This document shows, piece by piece, positions 26,245 to 32,161 of a stretch of DNA of 33,076 nucleotides; within the stretch, counting starts at the first letter, position 1; the number at the start of each line of letters is the position of its first letter. The stretch spans positions 23,484-56,559 of the forward strand of contig CAMYJF010000029.1 in the NCBI GenBank assembly GCA_947258555.1, in the 5' to 3' direction. The DNA comes from an uncultured Eudoraea sp. GTDB taxonomy: Bacteria; Bacteroidota; Bacteroidia; Flavobacteriales; Flavobacteriaceae. The notes beneath the pieces are model-generated. The model did no database searches, was not told where the DNA came from, and was given only the letters and a program-made list of their open reading frames with translations. Position numbers and translations under genes: made by a program.

Positions 26245-26508
26245 CTATCCCTGGATAGTATCTTTAGGATGCTCTTCGCCTTCCGGGTGTTCTTCCCCTT
26301 CAGGATGCTCTTCACCTTCAGGGTGTTCCTCCCCTTCTGGATGTTCTTCACCTTCAGGATGTTCTTCACCTTCTGGATGGTCAGCCGCCTGTTCTGTAGC
26401 TTCTTCCTTCTTTTTCTGATCTCTGCAGGAATACATCGTCCCAACCAGGAACAAGCTCGTTAAAAGCAACATCAGCGTGAATGGTAATAGTTTTTTAATT
26501 CGGTTCAT
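26245..26508 (-). CDS. Small lipoprotein with six HPEGEE hexapeptide repeats
   Basis: I use ATG 26508, since the longer frame begins with TTG at 26514. The 87-residue product starts MNRIKKLLPFTLMLLLTSLF and has a lipobox ending MYSC (Cys28). It then has a short Lys/Glu linker and six consecutive HPEGEE repeats followed by HPKDTIQG. The mature part is thus an acidic, His-spaced, low-complexity chain that would extend from a membrane and could bind divalent or copper ions; this is inference from composition. The repeat is encoded by 18-bp units. A 7-bp hairpin (ACTATCC/GGATAGT, 26244-26259) overlaps its 3' end and is followed on the minus strand by TTTAATT, perhaps a weak terminator. No characterised family is recognised. 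Confidence 0.8.
   Translation of the reverse strand: MNRIKKLLPFTLMLLLTSLFLVGTMYSCRDQKKKEEATEQAADHPEGEEHPEGEEHPEGEEHPEGEEHPEGEEHPEGEEHPKDTIQG
26267..26380. repeat. 18-bp tandem repeat (six units) encoding HPEGEE
   Basis: Six 18-bp units run from 26267 to 26374, with a partial seventh to about 26380. They read GGATGCTCTTCGCCTTCC on the plus strand, with differences mostly at third codon positions (for example GGGTGTTCTTCCCCTTCA). The peptide is identical in all units while codons differ, which suggests selection on the peptide rather than a very recent slippage expansion. Confidence 0.9.
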
Positions 26509-31464: not shown

Positions 31465-31694
31465 GGTGTAAAGTATTGATTTTTTTGTAAGTTATTTCCT
31501 TCTTTATTTGAAGGCAAAAATTTGTTGTGAATTCCAGAAAACTGCATATGAAAGTTTAAAGTATTGAGGTTTAGAAAATTACTTGGCCTGTAGTTTATAT
31601 TGATTTTGGAGATAGAAAATCGGTGAAGACAGGGGGGTAAAAAGCTACAAGGCGATGCTTTAAATCTATATTTTGAACTAGGAATTAACAACGA
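31465..31694. other. AT-rich intergenic stretch upstream of the hypothetical lipoprotein
   Basis: This should hold the promoter of the minus-strand lipoprotein gene. I see no clear TAnnTTTG element, no RNA gene and no credible ORF; the frames here run across non-coding sequence. Confidence 0.4.
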
Positions 31695-31745
31695 CAGGAT
31701 TACGCCCCTCGATAAACTCGGGATAACCCCTACGGCGTGATCCTG
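31695..31745. repeat. Imperfect palindromic intergenic element
   Basis: Arms CAGGATTACGCC (31695-31706) and GGCGTGATCCTG (31734-31745) pair at 11 of 12 positions, around a 27-nt centre with two direct CTCG copies. A second small hairpin, CAACGC-TCC-GCGTTG (31748-31762), follows. The local GC content is well above the flanks, as expected for a dispersed palindromic repeat. No coding function is evident. Confidence 0.5.
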
Positions 31746-31791
31746 ACAACGCTCCGCGTTGAAAATCAAAAAAAGAAAACTGCTTCTCTTT

Positions 31792-31827: not shown

Positions 31828-31855
31828 CGTTTCCACTCTTTTTTTGATTTATTCG

Positions 31856-31929
31856 TGATCGCGACAGGATTCGAACCTGTGACCGTCTGCTTAGAAGGCA
31901 GATGCTCTATCCAGCTGAGCTACGCGACC
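31856..31929 (-). tRNA. tRNA-Arg (anticodon TCT)
   Basis: The 74-nt gene folds as a cloverleaf. The acceptor GGTCGCG pairs with CGCGATC (one G-U), the D arm is GCTCAGCTGGATAGAGC, and the anticodon stem-loop is TCTGC-CTTCTAA-GCAGA with anticodon TCT. The T arm is ACAGG-TTCGAAT-CCTGT and the discriminator is A. CCA is not encoded. It would read AGA/AGG codons. Its first 12 nt also occur in each unit of the tandem array just upstream. Confidence 0.95.
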
Positions 31930-32123
31930 TTGTTGCGGAGCGAAGCTGCCTGTCCGTCCGTAGTGAAACGTAGGAGGAAGCTACGCGACCTTGTTGCGGA
32001 GCGAAGCTGCCTGTCCTGCCTGTCCGTCCGTAGTGAAACGTAGGAGGAAGCTACGCGACCTTGTTGCGGAGCGAAGCTGCCTGTCCGTCCGCAGTGAAAC
32101 GAAGGAGGAAGCTACGCGACCTT
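31920..32123. repeat. Tandem array upstream of tRNA-Arg, each unit carrying the tRNA 5' end
   Basis: Three units of 61, 70 and 61 bp (31920-31980, 31981-32050, 32051-32111) and a 12-nt start of a fourth (32112-32123) are nearly identical; the middle unit has an extra 9-bp duplication (CTGCCTGTC). Read on the tRNA strand, every unit boundary repeats AAGGTCGCGTAGCT, that is, the first 12 nt of the tRNA plus two leader bases, followed by a non-tRNA segment (CTTCCTCC...CGCAAC). The same 14-nt word therefore occurs at 31918-31931 (the true tRNA) and 32110-32123 (the promoter-proximal end). Confidence 0.92.
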
Positions 32124-32153
32124 ATTTCAAAAAGTGCCCAATCTATGGCGGGG

Positions 32154-32161
32154 CAAATATA
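32154..32161 (-). promoter_or_regulatory. Candidate -7 promoter element for tRNA-Arg
   Basis: The minus strand reads TATATTTG, an exact fit to the Bacteroidota TAnnTTTG -7 consensus, with a T-rich stretch about 18-24 nt upstream but no exact -33 TTTG. It lies about 25-30 nt before the first copy of the tRNA 5' end, a normal distance for a short leader, and on the far side of the tandem array from the intact tRNA. Confidence 0.55.

Follow-up and report, generated by a model that had tools for sequence, protein, structure and literature searches.

An intact tRNA-Arg(TCT) gene lies on the minus strand of the window, by which we mean the whole analysed stretch of 33,076 nucleotides from an uncultured Eudoraea sp. 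Between this gene and a candidate promoter element, three tandem units are found, each of which opens with the first nucleotides of the same tRNA, and a hairpin is located on the other side of the gene (Table 1).

Table 1. Features of the tRNA-Arg(TCT) locus in window coordinates
Feature	Position	Strand	Remarks
Intact tRNA-Arg(TCT)	31929..31855	minus	sole copy found in the 95% complete assembly
Unit 3, 61 bp, adjoins the tRNA	31930..31990	minus	tRNA nt 1-12 at 31979-31990
Remainder of unit 3: palindrome insert, CAGCT, inverted 5'-end remnant	remnant at 31932-31941	minus	
Unit 2, 70 bp	31991..32060	minus	design of unit 3 plus an internal 9-bp duplication; nt 1-12 at 32049-32060
Unit 1, 61 bp, promoter-proximal	32061..32121	minus	nt 1-12 at 32110-32121; 2 base differences in the palindrome
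TATATTTG, candidate promoter element	32154..32161	minus	fits TAnnTTTG; position compared with unit-free relatives
Hairpin downstream of tRNA-Arg	31692..31747	minus	DNA fold z -4.27

The 14-mer AAGGTCGCGTAGCT at the junction of leader and tRNA occurs four times in the window, always on the minus strand (31918-31931, 31979-31992, 32049-32062 and 32110-32123, at a spacing of 61, 70 and 61 bp). When up to 2 mismatches are allowed, exactly these four matches are recovered against 0.11 expected, and four were reached in 0 of 100 shuffles; TRF describes the array with a period of 61, 3.2 copies and a score of 317. Only the innermost copy runs into a complete tRNA-Arg(TCT), which starts at 31929. The distance from TATATTTG, which fits the promoter consensus TAnnTTTG, is 32 nt to the outermost copy and 224 nt to the real tRNA. 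The first-pass annotation, which had described four junction copies at about 61-70 bp, a complete tRNA only at the copy farthest from the promoter and a promoter-proximal copy diverging after 12 nt, was accurate in these respects, as each unit opens with GGTCGCGTAGCT, identical to tRNA nt 1-12. Its 14-nt shared junction holds for these 12 nt, but the preceding AA varies and is outside the shared rule, since the outermost copy in the relative G020 reads TTTTGGTCGCG.

The general order of a unit begins with tRNA nt 1-12, continues with a palindrome of the form TCC..GGACAGG placed between nt 12 and 13, and resumes with CAG, as in tRNA nt 13-15. After CAG, some units hold more of the tRNA D-loop; TTCGC with a remnant of the tRNA 5' end in inverted orientation often follows, and a spacer then leads to the next copy or to the intact tRNA. 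The stretch between copies had been put at about 47 bp and ascribed to an inserted element with a 14-bp target duplication. It measures 49 bp (58 bp in unit 2, with the 9-bp duplication inside) and, judged from its CAG and its inverted 5'-end remnant (pairing at 5 of 7 positions for the window unit, listed as L078), is partly tRNA-derived and not wholly foreign. The idea of a 14-bp target duplication is not supported, the duplicated piece being the tRNA's own sequence from at or near nt 1.

On the other side of the gene, the downstream hairpin opens with GTCAGGAT and closes with the inverse of this, AATCCTGTCG, which agrees with the tRNA 3' arm over 10 nt. It looks like a broken 3'-end copy of tRNA-Arg that falls below the length criterion of the genome-wide copy count given below, and pieces similar to it are also seen by eye 3' of tRNA-Arg in relatives. 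Elsewhere in the window (26262-26379), an 18-bp tandem repeat (period 36, score 173) lies between two ORFs of at least 100 aa.

Copies, their own tRNAs and the choice of 5' end

Upstream 5'-end copies in the host genome are not confined to tRNA-Arg. A copy of the tRNA's own first 12 nt (at most 1 mismatch) is present within 350 bp upstream of 6 of the 27 tRNAs (Gly gcc, Val tac, Ile gat, Arg tct, Phe and Asn), against 0/27 in the reversed control. Likewise, a copy of the own last 15 nt (at most 2 mismatches) lies downstream of 7 of the 27 (Gly gcc, Lys, Ile gat, Phe, Val gac, Arg cct and Arg acg; three flanks were shorter than 350 bp), also against 0/27. The 3'-end copies are less certain than the 5'-end copies, since at 28 tRNA-Arg loci of relatives, where a downstream 3'-end copy was found at 10 of 56 tRNAs, the foreign-tRNA control of this noisy test gave 23/436. 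In the Val, Ile and Asn copies, an identical 20-mer palindrome, CCTGCCTGCCGGCAGGCAGG, is seen by eye at A9^G10. It also precedes a tRNA-Lys 3'-end copy and recurs in a tRNA-like 3' end of Kerfeldbacterium (by eye), among loci nearly all of which had been fetched for tRNAs or units, and it is absent from the window. The Gly(gcc) copy continues through the anticodon region (by eye). At a further host locus (L268), 3' of tRNA-Met(cat), tandem units composed of the tRNA 3' end and a likely terminator are broken by another palindrome, and by eye this array resembles a mirror case on the 3' side.

Copies match the tRNA they precede, as judged by permutations whose figures are not strict probabilities, since the units are partly related by descent. 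Over nt 1-7, copy and downstream tRNA agree in 328 of 350 letters, versus 182 (sd 9) when permuted among units (50 of 55 innermost units were usable). Past the palindrome, agreement with the own tRNA's nt 16-22 amounts to 235 of 504 letters versus 181 (sd 6.8; 0/20000 permutations; 72 innermost units), and in 16 of these 72 the first four letters past the palindrome are all equal. The inverted arm, recognisable in 33 of 53 units, is complementary to its own copy in 122 of 231 letters versus 79 (sd 6.2; 0/20000), or in 51 of 112 versus 32.8 (sd 4.2; 2/20000) if only one unit per distinct heptamer is kept (16 units). For L158, the gene beyond the nearest tRNA was used, as the nearest one has unread bases. 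Since tRNA sequence tends to continue over nt 16-22 and an inverted piece of the 5' end closes the unit on the right, the sequence hosting the palindrome was probably a longer tRNA copy. At one locus (L245), a tRNA-Ala copy reaches the 3' end and carries palindromes in both the D and anticodon arms (by eye). The palindrome site T12^C13 and the motif recur across phyla. Of the 11 arrays listed, 4 (L053, L062, L068 and L110) have an outermost copy that has diverged from the tRNA, while the inner copies never differ from it.

The heptamer of the copy equals that of the tRNA in 52 of 68 units. In the 16 units that differ, all 7 acceptor pairs are formed by the real 5' end in 15 and by the copy in 4, and the inner end pairs better in 13, worse in 1 and equally in 2, a comparison that favours the real end because that end served to locate the 3' strand. 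Since the inner end keeps its acceptor pairing, it appears to be under selection, with the copies drifting. In ViennaRNA equilibrium folds of 33 units, the mean pairing with the tRNA 3' acceptor is 0.70 for the copies versus 0.17 for the real 5' end; in these folds, the real 5' end is presumably occupied by the inverted arm. The outcome may be different when the RNA folds during transcription or is bound by proteins. The earlier idea that the copies may act as decoy 5' ends is plausible from the folding, yet the sequence divergence points to the inner 5' end as the one kept functional. A role of the inverted arm in shielding the copy from mispairing is not supported at equilibrium, as copy pairing was slightly stronger with natural than with shuffled arms (higher in 25 of 33 units, lower in 8). 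Folded alone, a unit forms one long hairpin (z -2.27 in the window, -2.41 in G020); extension by 13 bases brings z to -0.35, and the entire leader together with the tRNA is unremarkable (z -1.57). RNAalifold finds one compensated pair of 7 and little covariation, with invariant blocks that are partly forced by the search pattern. In G339 and G150, which belong to one genus, the first four pairs of the palindrome are conserved although the bases differ (TCCT/AGGA and TCCA/TGGA).

Empty sites in relatives and wider distribution

The check for empty sites in relatives that had been suggested for this locus yielded empty and filled pairs in two genera. In g201, G206 lacks the unit in the 190 nt viewed and reads TATATTTGCCGGGCGAATCAAGA followed by GGTCGCGTAGCTCAG, whereas G378 has it and reads TATATTTGCCGGGCGAAATAAACA followed by GGTCGCGTAGCTTCTGCC, and the two have an almost identical leader between TATATTTG and the first GGTCGCG. 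In g124, G129 is empty and G328 filled, which gives a second pair. In g19, the site of G419 is empty and that of G020 holds an array; in G271, a tRNA piece with a different palindrome lies upstream. The pairs indicate that the outermost copy occupies the former tRNA start, and that units were added between promoter and gene. The proposal of an inserted element with subsequent tandem growth can be retained as regards the addition between promoter and tRNA and the tandem repetition, but not as regards a generic element. G001 and G002, which belong to the same genus as the host, gave no match to tRNA-Arg(TCT) at 1e-16 and none to the neighbouring ORF. At the 28 unit-free tRNA-Arg loci of relatives, TAnnTTTG is found within 130 nt upstream in 12, at 12 to 55 nt before the tRNA; the remaining loci mostly stand behind another tRNA or have no TAnnTTTG. 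As for carriers, one (L057) has TAnnTTTG 115 nt ahead of the first copy found, and another (L055) has none within the 330 nt searched.

A similarity search of 397 genomes of the family gave a match in 17, of which 13 lie beside a called tRNA (Arg, Met or His), one at a contig end in tRNA-like sequence (G267, by eye) and two away from tRNAs (G316 and G400), while G077 matches the tRNA alone. A pattern including the tRNA D-arm matched 14 of the 397 (control 0), two of them with no tRNA beside the match (L075 and L087), and a third pattern matched 3 of 395 genomes of the phylum, namely the host and, judged by eye, a broken copy of tRNA-Ala and an array resembling CRISPR. Given these low counts, the element is rare and patchy across the family and phylum genomes searched; patchiness also follows from the relatives' 28 tRNA-Arg loci, at which an upstream copy was found at 0 of 56 tRNAs. 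One candidate unit array (L244, in G642) was discarded, since it looks like a CRISPR array with the repeat GTTCACTGCCGGACAGGCAGCTTAGAAA, and its likeness to the tRNA units (GGACAGGCAGCTT) seems accidental.

In public genome contigs of 84,980 species, at least 118 pattern loci were found, a number that is not a census. Among the 118 listed, a complete tRNA follows within 420 nt downstream in 69, only a tRNA 5'-end copy in 7 and neither in 42; some of the latter (L096, L106 and L124) look like units at contig ends, and others like coding sequence from unrelated phyla. The six bases before TAGC recur exactly downstream in 50 of the 69 listed tRNA-adjoining loci. Sorted by hand, these 69, 5 of which are records also counted among the G genomes, fall into Patescibacteria and allied groups (23), Bacteroidota (22), Neomarinimicrobiota (15), Ignavibacteria (2), Kiritimatiellota (1) and Omnitrophota (1), with no group given for 5. 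The pattern CGGNGGACAGGCAG, which leaves out the tRNA 5' part, has 12 matches in 6 of 12 element-holding genomes, and all 12 stand before a tRNA (Arg, Ile, Thr, Ala, Val, His or Lys), a figure that speaks of location and not of frequency, since the genomes were picked for holding an element. With a looser pattern, 16 flavobacterial genomes taken from earlier matches gave 15 matches in 8 genomes, 10 at tRNAs and 5 not. Plasmids and phages yielded no sequence similar to the array. The single pattern match in a viral contig was dismissed, since ARAGORN calls no tRNA there and a tRNA-like sequence on the opposite strand explains the match (by eye).

Some further repeats were recorded along the way. 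A dispersed palindrome, GCCCGCCTTC..GTACGGAGGACAGGCAG, occurs in two genera with no tRNA called nearby (L208 and L216 in G214, L218 in G144). In the order-level relative G059, the 3' half of tRNA-Arg is repeated many times in copies of 37-51 nt (L048 and L049); no complete tRNA is called in these stretches, and the copies are perhaps attachment sites of several integrated elements. In G020, a 45-nt exact copy of the tRNA-Arg 3' end lies about 7.7 kb from the tRNA (L042) and a shorter one about 180 bp downstream of it.

Origin of the units and comparison with known systems

The explanation that we favour, with about an even chance of being right, is that the array consists of three partial self-copies of tRNA-Arg(TCT), whose D-arm was broken by a tRNA-directed palindrome (TCC..GGACAGG) and which were later amplified between promoter and gene. 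A partial tandem duplication of the tRNA 5' region would have left a spare copy next to the promoter, and the palindrome would have entered it at a site in the D-arm that it prefers, after nt 12 and before nt 13. The body of the spare copy would then have eroded to nt 1-12, palindrome, CAG.. and inverted 5'-end remnant, and unequal exchange would have multiplied the unit, so that the one nearest the promoter would be the oldest. Transcription would run from TATATTTG through a leader of about 200 nt, and RNase P would have to cut at the innermost 5' end, the only one joined to a tRNA body. The longer spare copy is favoured because the tRNA-Ala copy of L245 and the Gly copy run towards full length and tRNA sequence continues past the palindrome. 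Against this explanation stands a motif, TTCC..GGACAGGCAG, common to distant phyla and partly forced by the search pattern, although TTCC was absent from the CGGNGGACAGGCAG search and CTTCGC from the public-genome pattern. Since such sharing exceeds what duplicates decaying at random would show, some common origin or function of the palindrome is called for. Also against it, the equilibrium pairing of the copies with the 3' acceptor (0.70 versus 0.17 for the real end) would hurt processing and fits uneasily with a harmless leader, upstream copies are patchy (0 of 56 tRNAs at the 28 relatives' loci) and covariation is little. A real element is favoured by the motif common to several phyla and by one site being used repeatedly, and one may tentatively think, though we find it rather doubtful, of short palindromic tRNA-specific elements in Bacteroidota, Neomarinimicrobiota and Patescibacteria that enter the D-arm, rebuild the 5' end with a direct and an inverted copy, and form arrays growing from the inside.

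A strong rival, somewhat unlikely in our estimation, is accordingly an insertion in one step, in which a mobile palindrome would enter the D-arm and regenerate the 5' end in the same event as a direct and an inverted copy, whereby the gene would survive, and each further entry would place one more unit inside. It would account for a site T12^C13 and a motif that are identical across phyla, for direct and inverted copies that are tRNA-specific, for the empty and filled pairs of g201 and g124, for a 20-mer palindrome identical in copies of three tRNAs of one genome and for the divergence of outermost copies in 4 of 11 arrays. It agrees less well with copies that often extend past the insertion point, or that seem nearly complete and carry another palindrome in the anticodon arm. 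Transposases of the Y1 type, by which REPs are moved, bear on this rival in both directions: PF01797 was matched in 7 of 7 carriers outside the flavobacteria and in 4 of 11 flavobacterial ones, but neither in the host genome (G000, one of the 11) nor in 6 further flavobacterial carriers, and it was matched in 5 of 12 non-carriers. Mobilisation by Y1/RAYT is thus not supported for the host, whose case Y1 transposases leave unexplained; in other phyla they may still play a part. Moreover, the insert has no dispersed copies in the host genome: the test for REP-like dispersal, which covered the array's insert, gave 5 matches with at most 3 mismatches (3 of them the array) versus 5 in the reversed control.

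The units may instead be a functional leader RNA, with hairpins that control the maturation or amount of the tRNA, a view that we hold to be quite improbable. Single unit hairpins are stabler than shuffles in the window and in G020, the arms are complementary to the copy that they flank, and G339 and G150 keep four palindrome pairs with different bases; however, the stability fades with 13 more bases or in the leader with its tRNA, the units are patchy even inside genera and vary in number, covariation is little, and only the tRNA reaches the Rfam threshold at the locus. The equilibrium folds, which join the copy to the tRNA 3' strand, are what could be said for the outer copy as the true 5' end and the intervening stretch as an intron-like insertion in the D-arm, but the inner end keeps acceptor pairing where the copy differs (better in 13 of 16) and there are several copies per array, which makes this very improbable. 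Least credible of all is an assembly artefact or chance repeat, the possibility on which the earlier reading was to fail: two G020 contigs end inside the array, so that such arrays evidently trouble assemblers, but the units differ mutually, similar arrays exist in other genomes and none of 100 shuffles gave four copies.

Among known systems, the nearest case is the tyrT array of E. coli (rtT RNA), in which tandem units downstream of tRNA-Tyr each start with part of the tRNA 3' end. Here, too, tandem units hold one end of the adjoining tRNA and are probably co-transcribed with it, as the promoter position suggests, whereas the 5' end instead of the 3' end is copied, the units lie between promoter and gene instead of downstream, a palindrome sits in the D-arm, and many tRNAs in several phyla are concerned. 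Mobile elements at tRNA genes leave attL/attR copies of the tRNA end, usually the 3' end, and span kilobases with an integrase. As with these, the tRNA is restored and a copy of its end is left behind, but it is the 5' end, and the 49-58 bp between copies leave no room for integrase-bearing DNA. GTAG-type REP palindromes are short, with GTAG at the hairpin foot and with tandem units (PMC3733652). The present units look similar in these three respects, although their GTAG is tRNA nt 7-10; unlike REPs, they are of low copy and mostly at tRNA genes where tested, and the host genome has no PF01797 match. In the degenerate tRNA clusters of Planctomycetes, many tRNAs are partially degraded (PMC4807772); partly degraded tRNA copies are found here as well, but each is a copy of the very next tRNA and is broken by a palindrome. 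In contrast to IS elements and MITEs, there is no fixed-length duplication of an unrelated target, since the tRNA 5' end itself is duplicated and the upstream extent varies, and in contrast to a CRISPR array the whole unit repeats, without constant repeats separated by differing spacers. Searches of open-licence papers gave no description of such tRNA 5'-end arrays.

For the host, the finding means that a tRNA-Arg found once in the assembly is seemingly read through three false 5' ends and that comparable cases occur repeatedly in nature, which makes the choice of site by RNase P directly testable. The copies act like fossils and may preserve older tRNA sequence. For instance, in the tRNA-Phe of L117 the heptamer of the copy forms 7 Watson-Crick pairs with the 3' strand and that of the living gene 6 and a wobble, and it is possible that this copy preserves the older sequence. 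If the palindromes are mobile, they would represent a tRNA-specific type of element and, if there is indeed a class that enters the D-arm, host tRNAs would survive insertion into an essential gene.
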